A DNA stretch of 33,556 nucleotides, from the NCBI GenBank assembly GCA_021324635.1, contig JAJPIS010000053.1, positions 1-33,556 on the forward strand, in the 5' to 3' direction. The notes below the pieces were generated by a model. It was not told the DNA's origin and ran no database searches. It was given only the letters and a program-made list of their open reading frames with translations. Below, one piece after another: positions 13,121-33,419 of the stretch (within the stretch, counting starts at the first letter, position 1; every line of letters starts with the position of its first letter). The position numbers were made by a program, and so were the translations under genes. This stretch comes from Gemmatimonadota bacterium. GTDB lineage: Bacteria; Gemmatimonadota; Gemmatimonadetes; Gemmatimonadales; Gemmatimonadaceae.

Positions 13121-13903
13121 ATGCCACGCCACCCCGATCGCTCGGCTCCCGGGCCGCTCGTCGCGGTCACGGCCACCATCCACAATGACGACGACGGGGT
13201 GGCGCGCGTGCGCCTCGGGGCAGCGTATCTTCGCGTCATCGAGCGCGCGGGGCTGACGCCGGTCGTCGTGCCACCGTTCGCGGGGACCCCCGACGCGGTG
13301 GCGGCCGCGGTTGGGCGAGTCCTGGACGCGGTCGACGGGCTGGTCCTCACCGGTGGCGAGGACGTGGAACCGGCGCGGTACGGCGCGGCGCCCAGTCCGC
13401 ACATTCAGAAGGGCACCCCCGCGCGCGACGCGACCGAGCTGGCGTTGGTCGAGGAAGCTCGGCGTCGCGCGCTGCCGACGCTGGCGATCTGCCGCGGCGT
13501 GCAGGTACTCAACGTCGCCCTGGGCGGATCCCTGATCCAGGACATCCCGACCGAGCGCCCCGGATCCCTCGACCACGACCCCGATCTCGCGCGCGATGTG
13601 CGCACCCATCCGATCCGAATCCTCCCCGGCTCACGGACCTCGGCCGCCCTCGGCACGGACGCCCTCCAGGTCAATTCCGTTCATCACCAGGCGGTCGACC
13701 GCATCGCGTCGGGCCTGGTGGTGACGGCGACGTCGCCCGACGGGATCGTGGAGGGCGTCGAGACGCCCGCCGACGATCCCTGGTGGGTCCTCGGCGTGCA
13801 GTGGCACCCGGAGGAATTCGTCGCCGACGTTCATGCCCCGGACCACACGCTGTTCGCCGCGCTCGCCGCCGCGCTCGCGCTCGGGGCGGCCGTTCCGCGC
13901 TAG
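13121..13903 (+). CDS. Gamma-glutamyl-GABA hydrolase-like protein (peptidase C26, class-I GATase fold)
   Basis: The family includes PuuD, which cleaves gamma-glutamyl-GABA to glutamate and GABA. The protein has DGLVLTGGEDVEPARYG (70-88), nucleophile Cys124 in LAICRGVQVLNVALGGSLIQD, His184-region NSVHHQAVD, and the catalytic pair His229/Glu231 in GVQWHPEE. The length of 260 residues is normal. The substrate is not fixed by sequence; other C26 members act on other gamma-glutamyl amides. Its TAG (13901-13903) overlaps the opposite-strand TAG of the DUF1634 gene in the tetranucleotide CTAG. It diverges from the Omp85-like gene across 78 nt. Confidence 0.9.
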   Translation: MPRHPDRSAPGPLVAVTATIHNDDDGVARVRLGAAYLRVIERAGLTPVVVPPFAGTPDAVAAAVGRVLDAVDGLVLTGGEDVEPARYGAAPSPHIQKGTPARDATELALVEEARRRALPTLAICRGVQVLNVALGGSLIQDIPTERPGSLDHDPDLARDVRTHPIRILPGSRTSAALGTDALQVNSVHHQAVDRIASGLVVTATSPDGIVEGVETPADDPWWVLGVQWHPEEFVADVHAPDHTLFAALAAALALGAAVPR

Positions 13904-27455: not shown

Positions 27456-29609
27456 GTGTCGGGCCTCAACCCGGCGCAGGAGGCCGCCGCGATCCACGGC
27501 GACGGTCCGCTGCTCATCATCGCGGGCGCCGGAACGGGGAAAACGCGGACCCTGGTGCACCGGGTCGCGCACCTCATCGAGCGCGGGGTGCGACCGGAGC
27601 GGATCCTGCTGCTGACGTTCACGCGGCGGGCGGCGCAGGAGATGCTGGGCCGGGTCGAGCGGATCGTCGGCCCGTCGGGCCGCAAGGTACAGGGCGGCAC
27701 ATTCCACGCGACCGCCCACCGGCTCCTCCGCCGCTTCGGTGCGGCGGCGGGACTCCCGAGCGACTTCACGATCATGGATCAGGAGGACGCGCAGGATCTC
27801 ATGCACCTCTCGCGCGTCCAGCTCGGCTACGGCGAGCGGTCGAAGCGGTTCCCGAAGAAGGAGACGCTGCACTACGTGTACTCGCGTCACGTCAACACCG
27901 AGCTCCCGGTGGCGACGATCCTCGCCGAGGAGTTCGCCGCGTTCCGGGAGTACGTGGTCGACATCGGCCGCATCTTCGCCGACTACACGCAGCGGAAGGC
28001 CGCCCGGAACCTCGTCGACTACGACGACCTCCTGCTCTTCTGGGCCGCCCTGCTGGAGGGCCCGCCCCGGCCGGCGGGCGACGGGGTGCAGGGCGTGGGG
28101 GGCCACGCCGACGCCGGCCCCCACGCCGGGGCCGGTCACGGCGGCGAGGTGGCCGATGGCGAGCCGCCGGCCGGCTGGCCCCTGGGGGCGCGGATCGCGG
28201 CTCTGTACGATCACGTGCTGGTCGACGAGTACCAGGACACGAACACGCTTCAGGCGCGGATCCTCCGCGGGCTGTGCCGCGGGCACCGGAACGTCACCGT
28301 GGTCGGGGACGATGCGCAGAGCATCTACTCGTTCCGCGGGGCGAGCTTCCGCAACATCCTCGACTTCCCGCACCAGTTCGAGGGGACCACGGTGGTGACG
28401 CTCGAGCAGAACTACCGGTCGACCCAGCCGATCCTCGACGCCACCAATTGCCTGATCTCTCGCGCGCGCGAGCGCTACAGCAAGGTCCTGTGGACGGCGC
28501 GGGGCGGGGGCGAGCGTCCGTGGCTCGTGACGGCACGCGACGAGGAGGAGCAGACGCGGTTCGTGGTCGACCGGATCCTCGAGCTGTACGAGGGCGGGAC
28601 GCCGCTCCGCGAGATGGCGGTGCTCTTCCGCGCCGGCTACATGTCGGCCGCGCTCGAGATCGAGCTCGCGAACCGGAAGATCCCGTTCGAGAAGTGGGGC
28701 GGGTTGCGCTTCCTGGAGGCGGCGCACGTCAAGGATGTGCTGGCCTTCCTGCGGGTGATCGAGAACCCGCGCGACGAGGTGAGCTGGTACCGGATCCTGT
28801 CACTGCTCCCGGGGATCGGCGACCGGACGGCGCGGGCCGCGATCGCCGCGATGGCGCAGGCGGCGTGGGAGTCGGCCGCGTTCGCCCGGTATGTGCCGCC
28901 CGCCCGGGCGCGTGCGGCCCACGCGGCGCTCGTCGGGCTGCTCGAGACGCTCCGCGGCGAGGGCGCGGCGGCCGCCGCGGGTGGCGACGAATCGGACGGG
29001 CGGCCGGTGAGTGCGGAGATCGCCCGGGTTCGGCGCCTCTACGACGACATCCTCCGCGAGCGATACGATCGCGCCGAGCCGCGACTCGCCGACCTCGATC
29101 AGTTGGAGACGATCGCGGGCGGCTACCCGAGCCGGTCGGCGTTCCTGTCGGCGCTCGCGCTGGAGCCGCCGACGAACACGCACGACCTCGCGGTCGGCGA
29201 CCACGAGGACGAGGATGTGCTGGTACTCAGTACGGCCCACTCGGCGAAGGGTAAGGAGTGGGATGCCGTGTTCCTCGTCTGGGCGGTCGATGGATGGTTC
29301 CCGACGTCGCGGGCGCTCAACGATGAGGCGGGGCTGGAGGAGGAGCGGCGACTCATGTACGTGGCGCTCACGCGCGCGCGACACCATCTCACGGTCGTCT
29401 ATCCGCTCCAGGTGTACGGCAGCCGCCGCGGGGCGGATTACTCGATCGACCAGCTCTCACGGTTTCTCGACCGCGGGGTGCGGGCGACGATGGAGCGCGT
29501 GGTGGTGGGCACGCCGACACCCGAGCCGGGCACGCGTGCGCCCGCCGGCGAGCCGGCGTTCACGACGATCGATCTCCGCGCGCTCATGCGCGAGCGGTTC
29601 AGCGGGTGA
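27456..29609 (+). CDS. UvrD/PcrA-family superfamily-1 DNA helicase
   Basis: It unwinds DNA 3' to 5' with ATP, in repair or replication restart. Helicase motifs in order: Walker A AGAGTGKT (23-30), motif Ia LTFTRRAAQEM, motif II DEYQD (Asp257), motif III VVGDDAQSIYSFRGA, motif IV EQNYRST, motif V TAHSAKGKEWDAVFL and motif VI EERRLMYVALTRAR. At 717 residues it is near PcrA length. Residues about 202-243, between the domain-1 segment DYDDLLLFWAALLE and motif II, are a Gly/His/Ala-rich insertion absent from typical relatives. GTG 27456 is 6 nt after lipB, which suggests read-through from the lipoate operon. Confidence 0.94.
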   Translation: MSGLNPAQEAAAIHGDGPLLIIAGAGTGKTRTLVHRVAHLIERGVRPERILLLTFTRRAAQEMLGRVERIVGPSGRKVQGGTFHATAHRLLRRFGAAAGLPSDFTIMDQEDAQDLMHLSRVQLGYGERSKRFPKKETLHYVYSRHVNTELPVATILAEEFAAFREYVVDIGRIFADYTQRKAARNLVDYDDLLLFWAALLEGPPRPAGDGVQGVGGHADAGPHAGAGHGGEVADGEPPAGWPLGARIAALYDHVLVDEYQDTNTLQARILRGLCRGHRNVTVVGDDAQSIYSFRGASFRNILDFPHQFEGTTVVTLEQNYRSTQPILDATNCLISRARERYSKVLWTARGGGERPWLVTARDEEEQTRFVVDRILELYEGGTPLREMAVLFRAGYMSAALEIELANRKIPFEKWGGLRFLEAAHVKDVLAFLRVIENPRDEVSWYRILSLLPGIGDRTARAAIAAMAQAAWESAAFARYVPPARARAAHAALVGLLETLRGEGAAAAAGGDESDGRPVSAEIARVRRLYDDILRERYDRAEPRLADLDQLETIAGGYPSRSAFLSALALEPPTNTHDLAVGDHEDEDVLVLSTAHSAKGKEWDAVFLVWAVDGWFPTSRALNDEAGLEEERRLMYVALTRARHHLTVVYPLQVYGSRRGADYSIDQLSRFLDRGVRATMERVVVGTPTPEPGTRAPAGEPAFTTIDLRALMRERFSG

Positions 29610-29700
29610 ACCGCGGGTACGGAAGGAACAGCATGGAAGGGACGGCGGGATCGGGTGCCGCCCCGGCATCGGTGCGGGTACAGGGAGCGGGCGGCGCCGG

Positions 29701-29750
29701 GGCGATCGGCGCCGTGGCGATCGGCGCCGTGGCGATCGGCGCCGTGGCGA
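29701..29750. repeat. 15-bp tandem repeat between convergent genes
   Basis: GGCGATCGGCGCCGT is repeated three times exactly, followed by 5 bases of a fourth copy. Each unit contains the palindrome CGGCGCCG. It sits in the 145-nt gap between the helicase gene and the convergent methyltransferase gene, just past both stops. It may serve as a bidirectional transcript end or simply be a slippage-prone repeat. The frame GAIGAVAIGAV read through it has no coding support. Confidence 0.8.
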
Positions 29751-29754
29751 CTGG

Positions 29755-30633
29755 TCAGGGGAGGCGGAGGGCGCGGGCCAGGCTGGGGGGATCGACGAGA
29801 CCGTGGGGGATGAGGGTGCGCCAGAACTTGTACGCCCACTTGTCCGCGCCGTGGAGCCGGATGAGCTTCTCCTGGCCGAATTCCGCCTTGCCCCGCGCGG
29901 CGATCGGGATGAGGCGCCGCAGCGGGAGCGCGAGCGCGACATGCTGGAGCCGGCGGGTGAGGGCTCGGCCGGCGTGCGGGCGGTACTGGGCCCAGGCGAT
30001 CGAGCCGCTGAAGCCGGCCGGGCCGAAATCGGGGCTCGCCAGCACCTCCTGGTCGAACACGCGGAGCGTGCCCTCCCAGGTGCCGAGGACATCGTGCATC
30101 GCCACGATCGCACCCGGCGCGAGGCGCGGCGTGAAGAGCCGCACGTCGGCGCGGGCGCCCTCGTAGCTGTGGTCCCCGTCGATCCAGAGAAAGCGGATCG
30201 GATCCCGCCAGTCGCGGGCGACGTCGCAGGAGTAGGCGCGTCGCGGCTCGACGGCGTCCCGTACGCCCGCGCGCTCCAGATTGGCGAGGAACTCGTCGAA
30301 CGTCGTCTCCTGCTCGCGGAGCACCGGATCGGTTGGCGATGGACAGGTATGCGGATCGATCGCGATCACCGGACCGAGATCGTAGTGCCGGGCCACGTAG
30401 GCGAGACCGACGGTCGACCGGCCCCTGAAGCTTCCGATCTCCACATTCGCCCCGTCGGCCGGGGCGAGCGCGATCGCCGCCATGATGAAGCGGGCCTCGC
30501 GCTCGGTGAGGTATCCCGGGGTCTCGCGGACGCGCGCCCAGGCCGCGGCCATGACGTACCCCAGGTCGGGCGGCGGTGCGCCGCGTACGCGGACCAACGG
30601 TCGGCCGGCGATGGCAGCGTCGATCACGGCCAT
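29755..30633 (-). CDS. Class I SAM-dependent methyltransferase
   Basis: The SAM-binding motif NVEIGSFRGRSTVGLAYVARHYDLGPVIAIDPHT shows the glycine-rich loop and the acidic end of strand 2. IRFLWIDGDHSYEGARADVRLFTPRLAPGAIVAMHDV is the strand-4/5 region of the Methyltransf_24 group, seen near sugar- and envelope-modifying genes. ATG 30633 gives 292 residues and lies 10 nt after the aminopeptidase stop, so the two minus-strand genes look like one operon. A longer frame to 30765 overlaps the upstream gene without motif support. The substrate is unknown. Confidence 0.85.
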   Translation of the reverse strand: MAVIDAAIAGRPLVRVRGAPPPDLGYVMAAAWARVRETPGYLTEREARFIMAAIALAPADGANVEIGSFRGRSTVGLAYVARHYDLGPVIAIDPHTCPSPTDPVLREQETTFDEFLANLERAGVRDAVEPRRAYSCDVARDWRDPIRFLWIDGDHSYEGARADVRLFTPRLAPGAIVAMHDVLGTWEGTLRVFDQEVLASPDFGPAGFSGSIAWAQYRPHAGRALTRRLQHVALALPLRRLIPIAARGKAEFGQEKLIRLHGADKWAYKFWRTLIPHGLVDPPSLARALRLP

Positions 30634-30643
30634 AACATAGTGA

Positions 30644-31771
30644 TCAGCGAGGCGGCGGGTGAGCCGGCTCACGCGCCGCCTCGCGCACGGCGCCGAGCGG
30701 GTCCCGGGGGTGGGCGCGGGCCAGGGCGATGATCCGCGCCACCGCGCGCCGCAGGTCGTGACCACTTGCGTCGTAGATCGCGTCGAAGTCGTCGAGACCG
30801 GTGAGATAGACGCGTCGGGCGAGCAGGGCCGCGTTGTCGAGTCGGGCGCGCGCGAGGGCCGCGGCCGGGATGGTGCGCACGCGCGCCGGCACCGAGTGTC
30901 GGAGCGAGTCTCGCGCGAGCGCGAAGATGCTGTCCCGGGCCGCCAGGCGCGCGGCGCGGGAGGCCGAATCGTCGCCGGGACGTGCCCGGAAGGCCGAGTC
31001 GAGGGTGACGTACACCCACGTCCAGAAGCGCCCGAGCGTCTTCTCGTCCGCCCAGCGCTCGTCCATCGTCCGGACGGCGGCCGTGTCAGCGCGGGCGCGG
31101 AAGAACGCGGCCGCCCCGCGGGCGCCCACGAAGTTGGCGAACGATTCGTTGAAGCTCGCCTGGCCCGGCGCGTAGTAGGTGTTGTGCGTGAGCTCGTGGA
31201 TGACGGTGTTGGCGAGGTCGAGTGAGTCGGTGCGGAGGGATGTCGAGACGAGCGGATCGTTGAACCAGCCGAGCGTGCTGAAGGCCGGCGAGGGGCGGAC
31301 GAAGGCGTCGTAGCCGGCGGCCCGCATCTGCGCCGCCGTGCGGACGGCGGCCGCGAAGTCGAAGTATCCCTTGTACGGCACGCGCCCGACGATCGGGAAC
31401 CACCAGGTGAGCGGCCGCAGGCGGTCGCGGTAGGCGCCCGAGAGAACGAGGACGAGCGTATCGTGCGGGAGCACCGAGTACATGGTGAAGCTGCGCTTGA
31501 CCCGCAGGCCGATGGAGTCGGCGGCGAAGCGCCGGGCCCCCTCGACCAACTCGAGCTGCGCCCGCGTGTGGGGGCTCGTAGCGGGGTCCGCGATCACATC
31601 GGCGATCGGGCGACGCCGCGCGAGGATGCGCACCTCCTCCCAGGCGGCGCGGGCGACGTAACGGACCGTCGGGCTCAGCAGCGACACGCCCACGGCGAGC
31701 ACGCCGACGCCGAGCGCGATCAGCGCCGCCGTGCCACACCCGCCGGCACCGGGCCGTCCGCTAGGGCGCAC
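30644..31771 (-). CDS. Putative zinc aminopeptidase (DUF/Aminopep family)
   Basis: The protein has 375 residues. An N-terminal membrane helix (GTAALIALGVGVLAVGVSLLSP, about 13-34) suggests export or anchoring. The metal site HELTH is at 192-196 with the third ligand Glu209 in NESFANFVG, a gluzincin-type arrangement. Upstream KGYFDFAAAVRTAAQMRAAGYDAFVRPSPAFSTLGWFNDP is typical of the family annotated as predicted aminopeptidase. GTG 31771 is 46 nt from the divergent dnaE start. The final 13 codons form one arm of a 38-bp palindrome. Substrate specificity is not known. Confidence 0.85.
   Translation of the reverse strand: MRPSGRPGAGGCGTAALIALGVGVLAVGVSLLSPTVRYVARAAWEEVRILARRRPIADVIADPATSPHTRAQLELVEGARRFAADSIGLRVKRSFTMYSVLPHDTLVLVLSGAYRDRLRPLTWWFPIVGRVPYKGYFDFAAAVRTAAQMRAAGYDAFVRPSPAFSTLGWFNDPLVSTSLRTDSLDLANTVIHELTHNTYYAPGQASFNESFANFVGARGAAAFFRARADTAAVRTMDERWADEKTLGRFWTWVYVTLDSAFRARPGDDSASRAARLAARDSIFALARDSLRHSVPARVRTIPAAALARARLDNAALLARRVYLTGLDDFDAIYDASGHDLRRAVARIIALARAHPRDPLGAVREAAREPAHPPPR
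30647..30684. repeat. 38-bp near-perfect palindrome at an operon junction
   Basis: The arms 30647-30665 and 30666-30684 match at 18 of 19 pairs with no loop; the core GTGAGCCGGCTCAC at 30659-30672 is perfect. It lies within the last codons of the aminopeptidase gene, ending directly before its stop codon, 13 nt upstream of the methyltransferase ATG. As RNA it would form a very stable GC hairpin. No U-run follows it on the minus strand. Confidence 0.85.
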
Positions 31772-31802
31772 CGGCGCCCTCCCCCGCCCCAGTCGCGATG
31801 GC

Positions 31803-31808
31803 TAACTT
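31803..31808 (+). promoter_or_regulatory. Candidate -10 box of dnaE
   Basis: TAACTT ends 9 nt before the ATG at 31818, the same spacing as TATATT before the gene at 13121. It would give a leaderless or near-leaderless dnaE mRNA. The surrounding ATGGCTAACTTGCAAAACCC is less GC-rich than its neighbours. No -35 is recognisable. Confidence 0.4.
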
Positions 31809-31817
31809 GCAAAACCC

Positions 31818-33419
31818 ATGGGCTTCGTTCATTTGCACTGTCATTCCGAATATTCGCTCCTCGACGGCGCAAATCGGATCGACCACCTGATCGCTCGCGC
31901 GCTCGAGCTCGAGCAGCCTGCCCTGGCGATCACGGACCATGGGAACATGCACGGCGCCTGGGAGCTCCAGGAGAAGGCCAAGAAGGCCAGGATCAAGCCG
32001 ATCATCGGGATGGAGGCGTACGTCGCGCCCGGCGACCGCCGGCTCCGGCAGCGACCCGCTCCCGGCGCCAAGCCCTACTTCCACCTCGTGGTCCTGGCCC
32101 AGAATGCGACCGGGTACCAGAACCTCGTGAAGCTCTCCTCGCTCGCCTACCTCGAGGGCTTCTACACCAAGCCACGGGTCGACCGCGAGCTCCTGGCCCG
32201 CTACGGCGAGGGCCTCATCATCTCGTCGGCGTGCATGGCGGGCGAGGTGGCGATGCATCTCCAGGCAGGGGATGTGCAAGCGGCGCGGGAGGCCGCCTCC
32301 TGGTACGCGAACGCCTTCCCGAATCGATACTACCTGGAGGTCCAGGCGCACGACACGCCCGGGCAGCGGGAGCTGAACGACCGGATCTTCGCGCTCGGCG
32401 CCGAGCTCGGGCTGCCGGTGATCGCGACCAACGACGCGCACTTCCTCCGACGGGAGGACCACGACGCGCACGATGTGCTGCTCTGCATCGGGCTGGGGAA
32501 AGACCGCGCGGACTCCGATCGCATGCGTTACGACGGCGGGCTCTACTTCAAGAGCGCCCCGGAGATCGCCGAGCGCTTCCCAGACCACCCCGAGGTCCTC
32601 GAGAACACGCTGCGGATCGCCGACTCGGTGGACGTGCCGTTCTCGAAGACGTACCGGGTGCCCTCGTTCCCGCTGCCGAGCGGCGTCGCGACGGAGAACG
32701 AGTTGCTGGTGCAGCTCGCGGAGGCGGGCGCGCGCGAGCGGTACGGCGACCCGCTCCCGCCGGCCGCGCGCGACCGGCTCGACTACGAGCTCGGTGTGAT
32801 CACCAAGACCGGGTACGCCGGGTACTTCCTGATCGTCGCCGATTTCATCCGGGCAGCGCGGGACCGCGGGATCCCGGTCGGGCCGGGCCGCGGGTCGGCC
32901 GCGGGGTCGCTCGTCGCCTACGCGCTCCGCATCACGAACGTCTGCCCGCTCCGGTTCGACCTGCTGTTCGAGCGCTTCCTCAATCCGGAACGCGTCTCGA
33001 TGCCGGACATCGACGTCGACTTCTGCTTCGAGCGGCGGGGCGAGGTCATCGAGTATGTCCGGCAGAAGTACGGCCGTGACTCGGTCGGCCAGATCGTGAC
33101 GTTCGGCACGCTCAAGTCGCGCGCCGCGGTGAAGGATGTCGGCCGAGCGCTGGGGTTCACGCCGGCAGAGACGGACGCGCTCGCGAAGCTGATCCCCAAC
33201 CAGCCGAACTACTCGCTGACGGTCCAGGAGGCGACGCAGCAGATCTCGGAAGTGCGGCGGTTGTACGACAAGGACGACCGCTATCGGCAGCTCCTCGACT
33301 ATGCGATCGCGCTCGAGGGCCTGTCACGTCACTCCGGGGTCCACGCCGCCGGCATCGTGATCGCACCGGGCCCGCTCGACGAGTATGTGCCGGTCTTCAC
33401 GACGACGACCAAAGGCTAG
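31818..33419 (+). CDS. dnaE: DNA polymerase III alpha subunit, N-terminal part (frame broken or incomplete)
   Basis: It is the replicative polymerase subunit. The PHP domain starts at GFVHLHCHSEYSLLDGANRID and continues through TDHGNMHGAWELQEKAKKARIKPIIGMEAY. The polymerase part has GYFLIVADFIRAARDRGIPVGPGRGSAAGSLVAY and PDIDVDF (near residue 396), with two of the three catalytic Asp. The frame ends at TAG 33417-33419 after 533 residues of the usual 1,100-1,200. The third catalytic Asp (in the FLGL segment), the fingers and all C-terminal domains are missing. A G-rich repeat follows directly. A frame shifted by one base stays open to the window end and reads as Gly/Ala/Val repeats, so the stop may be a sequencing error in a repeat. 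The gene probably continues past the window. Confidence 0.9.
   Translation: MGFVHLHCHSEYSLLDGANRIDHLIARALELEQPALAITDHGNMHGAWELQEKAKKARIKPIIGMEAYVAPGDRRLRQRPAPGAKPYFHLVVLAQNATGYQNLVKLSSLAYLEGFYTKPRVDRELLARYGEGLIISSACMAGEVAMHLQAGDVQAAREAASWYANAFPNRYYLEVQAHDTPGQRELNDRIFALGAELGLPVIATNDAHFLRREDHDAHDVLLCIGLGKDRADSDRMRYDGGLYFKSAPEIAERFPDHPEVLENTLRIADSVDVPFSKTYRVPSFPLPSGVATENELLVQLAEAGARERYGDPLPPAARDRLDYELGVITKTGYAGYFLIVADFIRAARDRGIPVGPGRGSAAGSLVAYALRITNVCPLRFDLLFERFLNPERVSMPDIDVDFCFERRGEVIEYVRQKYGRDSVGQIVTFGTLKSRAAVKDVGRALGFTPAETDALAKLIPNQPNYSLTVQEATQQISEVRRLYDKDDRYRQLLDYAIALEGLSRHSGVHAAGIVIAPGPLDEYVPVFTTTTKG

Follow-up and report, generated by a model that had tools for sequence, protein, structure and literature searches.

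A near-perfect palindrome at the coding end of an aminopeptidase gene in a Gemmatimonadota genome, considered as a candidate U-less 3'-end hairpin

Why should a protein-coding gene run into a near-perfect palindrome and stop directly behind it? The question is raised by an aminopeptidase gene in the window, by which I mean the whole stretch of 33,556 nucleotides analyzed here, taken from the Gemmatimonadaceae MAG of a soil bacterium. The final 38 nt of the sense codons of this gene are an inverted repeat, the TGA follows immediately, and the next gene, encoding a methyltransferase, lies on the same (minus) strand. The answer I favor, at a probability of about one half, is that the palindrome is an I-shaped (U-less) RNA hairpin at the 3' end of the aminopeptidase transcript, which lowers transcription into the methyltransferase gene, shields the message, or does both. 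The features of the region are listed in Table 1.

Table 1. Features of the palindrome and its neighborhood (positions are those of the window).
Feature	Position	Strand	Remarks
Near-perfect palindrome / RNA hairpin, 38 bp	30647..30684	minus	16 bp + C-C mismatch + CCGG loop
Hairpin 3' arm in minus-strand transcript	30647..30665	minus	ends directly before TGA
Hairpin 5' arm in minus-strand transcript	30666..30684	minus	
Aminopeptidase gene, 375 aa, PF10023 (E 8.9e-81)	30644..31771	minus	domain residues 38-354
Methyltransferase gene, PF13578	29755..30633	minus	downstream of aminopeptidase; start uncertain (ATG 30633 to TTG 30597)
UvrD-type helicase gene	27456..29609	plus	convergent neighbor of aminopeptidase in relatives
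dnaE-type gene, PHP + DNA_pol3_alpha domains	31818..33419	plus	divergent upstream neighbor

The two 19-bp arms adjoin with a spacer of 0 and pair at 18 of 19 positions, the sole mismatch falling at arm position 12 (G:G on the plus strand, C:C on the transcribed minus strand), and the bases flanking the palindrome on its outer sides are unpaired. Remeasurement thus agrees exactly with the extent, arms, single mismatch and absence of a loop described in the initial annotation, which was also right that the arms encode a peptide: REAAREPAHPPPR, the last 13 residues of the aminopeptidase. Folded as minus-strand RNA, the sequence has a predicted energy of -32.3 kcal/mol, a value reached by none of 200 shuffles of the same RNA (mean -17.0 kcal/mol, sd 2.6), and with its loop of 4 nt it is the stable, short-looped stem expected of an I-shaped hairpin. 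The 10 nt on the 3' side of the stem, TGATCACTAT, contain 4 T and so make up no U-tract; the RNA continues as UGAUCACUAUGUU, and the T-rich tract of an L-shaped terminator is missing. A scan of positions 29000-32500 for consensus terminators returned nothing, and neither a classical terminator nor a promoter was found there. It is not a known Rfam RNA either: the search of 29500-31900 gave 0 matches at or above the gathering score, the best of those overlapping the palindrome, both on the plus strand, being mir-6794 (30.7 of 74 bits) and symR (27.9 of 61 bits).

How surprising is such a structure in DNA of this composition? Hairpins were scored as matches minus twice the mismatches, with a loop of 0-8 nt, in the window together with 40 other stretches of its genome, 638,636 bases in all. 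The palindrome scores 16 and is the strongest inverted repeat that the scan found in the window. None of 12 order-3 Markov copies of the 638,636 bases contained a hairpin that reached 16, and 12 codon-shuffled copies of the 554,046 coding bases (about 6.6 Mb) contained one between them. From that single event one expects about 0.005 such hairpins per 33.5-kb window, and coding sequence alone would supply about half a hairpin in a genome of 4.09 Mb. The description of the arms as far beyond chance therefore holds for one window taken by itself and is weaker for a scan over many windows, because about 0.5 would be expected per genome from coding sequence.

The codons that make up the palindrome look poorly coding. 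By a codon score trained on this genome, the 13 codons have a mean log-odds of -0.40, as against 0.27 for the gene body, and windows scoring that low are found in 22 of 11,377 gene-body cases and 16 of 465 gene-end cases. The match to PF10023 is over before the palindrome begins in codon 363, and tblastn alignments to 81 loci of relatives end at residues 360-371 in 50 of them, reaching 374 at most. On these three grounds (low codon score, domain end, alignments that mostly stop short) the hairpin is probably not there for the sake of the tail peptide, which would be its read-out.

The most serious rival is that the palindrome has no function. It would then have arisen by mutation, through a fold-back template switch or through drift in a tail free of constraint, or else be a chance match in DNA that is very GC-rich. 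Near-perfect arms with no spacer between them are a possible trace of a template switch, the palindrome would be tolerated because the C-terminal tail is unconstrained, and the one equal hairpin in some 6.6 Mb of codon-shuffled sequence, or roughly half of one over the coding part of a genome of 4.1 Mb, does not put chance out of reach. I regard this account as a real but less probable possibility. The position of the palindrome, abutting the stop codon from its upstream side, speaks against it, and so does the behavior of other strong hairpins in the genome.

Hairpins as strong as the palindrome are not rare in this genome: there are 30 in the 638,636 bases sampled, and 21 of them carry the core of a dispersed repeat family, which the palindrome lacks (membership was assigned by the core string). 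Of the 30, 11 come from the first batch of stretches (282,183 bases), the family accounting for 6, and 18 from the second (322,897 bases), the family accounting for 15; the second batch is biased towards repeats because its stretches were picked for carrying another repeat. The window has 1, outside the family. Only 2 of the 30 lie within called genes, the palindrome and a hairpin at 13751-13790 of stretch L127, which has perfect 17-bp arms and lies 139 nt from the called start of its gene. That second case could be a wrong gene start or an internal element.

The repeat family itself consists of dispersed perfect palindromes of the form GGTGCCAGGGGCAATCGC ... GCGATTGCCCCTGGCACC in the genome (G000), for example at L153 18818-18856, L155 8422-8460 and L139 16147-16187. 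The core is GGTGCCAGGGGCAATCGC with its complement; the half-site has 79 matches in the genome at up to 2 mismatches (38 forward and 41 reverse), and the arms vary together, as GGTGCC/GGCACC, GGTGTC/GACACC and GGTACC/GGTACC. In both places that were read, the family occurs among GTAGGGGCGGCATTCATGCCGCCCGC repeats. A different repeat lies within the window at 29656-29696, between the ends of the methyltransferase and uvrD genes, as a diverged copy of a sequence with at least 40 further matches in the genome; some of these matches are paired at a spacing of about 45 bp, and some lie at the ends of contigs. Adjoining it, at 29692-29750, is a 15-bp tandem repeat of 3.9 copies.

Once the family is set aside, the remaining long hairpins are far commoner than in shuffled sequence, and they tend to gene ends. 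At scores of 14 or more, 10 of 16 non-repeat hairpins (the palindrome included) lie within 60 nt of the 3' end of a gene, and the same holds for 11.2% of 20,000 places taken at random and for 26% of the 2,888 among these that are intergenic. At 13 or more, 8 of 21 lie between convergent genes, an arrangement that makes up 67 of the 475 neighboring pairs. The distribution around stop codons was counted in bins of 30 nt, a hairpin between two convergent genes being counted for both. In the 0-60 nt past the stop, non-repeat hairpins of score 9 or more number 27 at the 134 convergent stops (against 22 in the other 18 bins) and 18 at the 337 codirectional stops (against 66). With the threshold raised to 11, the same bins hold 15 at convergent stops (6 elsewhere) and 2 at codirectional stops (18 elsewhere), and at 13 they hold 10 (3 elsewhere) and 1 (7 elsewhere). 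The peak of strong hairpins in the sampled genome is thus a property of convergent junctions only. The bins from -60 to 0 are at about background, and the palindrome, whose center lies 22 nt upstream of the gene end (-22), falls outside the 0-60 nt peak. The hairpins near stops are U-less: those scoring 11 or more (21 entries, 17 of them distinct) are followed by 0-4 T in the next 10 nt, and among the gene-end hairpins listed at 14 or more none has over 4 T in the next 8-10 nt. A second codirectional junction with this same arrangement was seen at L161 16818-16848, where a weaker hairpin (score 11) ends 1 nt before a TAG.

The census cuts both ways. A genome with many more long hairpins than shuffled sequence, lying preferentially at gene ends, argues against the account without function; the lack of any concentration of strong hairpins at codirectional gene ends argues for it, as does the fact that the palindrome is unique, not conserved, and situated in a variable tail.

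These last points come from comparison with other genomes. The palindrome is single-copy and lineage-specific. At up to 3 mismatches it occurs in 1 of 60 genomes of relatives and in 1 of 395 genomes of the phylum, both times the genome from which it comes, and no second copy was found in that genome, in the 59 other relatives or in the 394 other genomes of the phylum (the two sets overlap). The further genomic copies that the initial annotation had suggested looking for are accordingly absent at that threshold, and a mobile repeat or widespread site, of which many copies would be expected, is set aside on the same count. The aminopeptidase itself is widespread, being present in 139 of 149 genomes searched. 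Its 81 loci in relatives form two sets, of 29 (a set of 30 less the window itself) and 52, with several genomes in both and some loci cut by contig ends. Neither the 10-bp core of the palindrome nor the peptide is found in any of the 81, the stop codon being in reach in 77, and with 0 of these 77 gene ends carrying either one, the palindrome is ruled out as a conserved element of the aminopeptidase gene. The tails of two relatives of the same genus are unrelated to the palindrome-bearing tail. It had been proposed to weigh conservation of the palindrome against that of the peptide, with relatives that keep the peptide alone counting against a role; relatives turn out to lack both, which is neither case.

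A hairpin of a different sequence might nevertheless recur at the same place. Of 82 loci, 20 were dropped as duplicates, cut or mis-ended, and in the 62 kept, the interval from -60 to +120 around the aminopeptidase stop has a hairpin scoring at least 9 in 6 loci, this one included, whereas control stretches inside the gene gave 1 and 0 of 62. At a score of 12 or more only two of the 62 loci remain, the window and L014 (G082:C106). The latter, from another genus, has a much longer inverted repeat 42-114 nt past the aminopeptidase stop, with 36-nt arms and 5 mismatches.

The gene order around the palindrome is also peculiar to this genome. In the 81 loci of relatives, uvrD lies in the flank in 38, convergent and downstream in all 38, dnaE lies beside the aminopeptidase gene in 50, and the methyltransferase gene is in the flanks of 0. 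Conversely, among 28 methyltransferase loci, only the one in the window has an aminopeptidase gene alongside. Judged from the sequences of relatives, the old gene order is dnaE - aminopeptidase - uvrD and the methyltransferase an addition in this lineage, since relatives show the two neighbors and in no case the methyltransferase. A chimeric contig at the palindrome is unlikely, because uvrD (38/81) and dnaE (50/81) adjoin the aminopeptidase gene in relatives as well. The idea that the methyltransferase is a phage or plasmid gene was not borne out: the matches were all distant, and none covered more than about half of the query. Gene content at the aminopeptidase/uvrD junction (29610-30643 in the window; G001:C50 and G002:C40, that is L121 and L122) varies within the genus. 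The same-genus genomes have an acetyltransferase-type gene there (PF00583 in G002, a similar ORF in G001), and in G002 about 20 kb separate uvrD from the aminopeptidase gene.

For the reading as a U-less 3'-end hairpin this history matters in two ways. Before the methyltransferase arrived the junction was, by the 38 of 38 uvrD-holding loci, convergent, which is the commonest setting of such hairpins in this genome, and the palindrome may date back to that state. The junction is now codirectional, however, where strong hairpins show no pile-up past the stop. Also to be counted against this reading are the position of the palindrome outside the 0-60 nt peak, the empty scan for consensus terminators, the small number of aminopeptidase loci with a hairpin (6/62), the presence of other sequence at the site in genomes of the same genus, and the circumstance that a ribosome terminating at the stop codon would sit on the 3' arm.

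Because U-less hairpins are in surplus at gene 3' ends in this genome, the palindrome most likely acts on the end of the message or on the gene that comes next, and it is on that footing that I infer an action of the palindrome on RNA. The mechanism might run as follows. As polymerase exits the aminopeptidase gene, the hairpin would fold and cause pausing with partial termination, and/or it would stop 3' exonucleases. It would thereby set the end of the aminopeptidase message and limit read-through into the methyltransferase gene now lying behind it. Its location inside an open frame would come about if a poorly constrained C-terminal tail reads into the hairpin and stops directly behind it. 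The initial annotation had offered much the same alternatives, an RNA hairpin that protects upstream mRNA or blocks the next gene, and the hairpin part of that proposal fits the surplus at gene ends; as a whole the proposal is partly supported. The protective half of the reading is weakened by a cyanobacterial study (PMC7406221), in which transcripts had longer half-lives when their terminators carried a U-tract than when these were U-less.

A different kind of action on the second gene would depend on ribosomes. Here, ribosomes finishing the aminopeptidase would open the hairpin and couple translation to the methyltransferase, and without them the hairpin would block the second gene. The layout invites the idea: the hairpin ends at the stop, the ATG at 30633 lies 10 nt past the TGA (13 nt past the palindrome) without a Shine-Dalgarno-like motif, and close codirectional pairs are common in the sample, 47 of 337 being 0-15 nt apart. 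In a longer fold a second small stem forms just past the palindrome, with this ATG in its loop region, but the fold as a whole is ordinary for its composition (z -1.45). The methyltransferase start is moreover uncertain, because the frame shows a weak coding signal up to about residue 61 and its alignments with homologues start near residue 64. The ATG at 30633 is the gene caller's codon-based pick; GTG 30627 and TTG 30597 are possible too, so that the distance of 13 nt given in the initial annotation agrees with the gene caller for the first of these and could be as much as 49 nt for the last. None of the three has a clear Shine-Dalgarno motif, which says little, because only 103 of 497 called starts in the sample have one. 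(A start inside the palindrome, at GTG 30672 with GAGG before it, found no support, its coding score being near zero and no listed homologue matching before residue 49.) Finally, conservation lends the switch no support, because the gene pair was seen in this genome only among the loci examined. I consider it improbable, and think no better of a stricter variant, a ribosome-gated polarity element embedded in the coding region, which would fold only when no ribosome occupies the end of the aminopeptidase gene, the methyltransferase being expressed only while the aminopeptidase is translated; that, too, seems a rather poor prospect.

The near-exact two-fold symmetry over 38 bp, at a junction of variable gene content, might suggest a site acting as DNA, whether the operator of a dimeric regulator, a recombination site or a cruciform. 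This is very unlikely, given that the site lies at the end of a coding region and has no second copy, at up to 3 mismatches, in any of the genomes compared, and for the protein-bound cruciform of the initial annotation nothing was found in favor. Least credible of all is a copy of a dispersed, REP-like palindromic repeat. The genome does have a family of this type, whose hairpins have arms of 16-19 nt, but the single-copy palindrome lacks its core, and not one of the 22 family hairpins comes within 60 nt of the 3' end of a gene.

It remains to set the hairpin beside known systems. REP and BIME elements are palindromic hairpins near gene ends that could shield upstream mRNA. The palindrome resembles them as a palindromic hairpin near a gene end and differs in being single-copy and coding and in lacking the core that marks the repeat family of this genome. 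With L-shaped (Rho-independent) terminators it shares a GC-rich hairpin at a gene end; what it lacks is the U-tract. A literature search on Gemmatimonas and transcription terminators found no paper, and the closest parallels come from mycobacteria. TtsaD, a U-less hairpin in the alr-groEL1 operon of M. tuberculosis, terminates in vivo to a degree comparable to reference terminators in mycobacteria, and when reversed does nothing significant, according to PMC5335608. That paper also describes the evidence on I-shaped terminators as contradictory and cites the M. bovis polymerase as one that did not terminate without a U-tract. For mycobacteria, a review (PMC12288462) places I-shaped terminators within 50 bp downstream of stop codons and describes Rho-dependent termination as dominant there.

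Against this background the palindrome taken alone is ordinary, and its worth is that of a well-formed added case of a U-less gene-end hairpin. The surplus of such hairpins in a Gemmatimonadota genome, mainly at convergent junctions, bears on how transcripts end in GC-rich bacteria. The palindrome is unlike TtsaD and other I-shaped terminators in that its stem stands in the coding tail, ahead of the stop codon. It is like them, as far as they are described in PMC5335608 and PMC12288462, in being a GC-rich, U-less stem-loop at a gene end followed by a codirectional gene, in a GC-rich genome.
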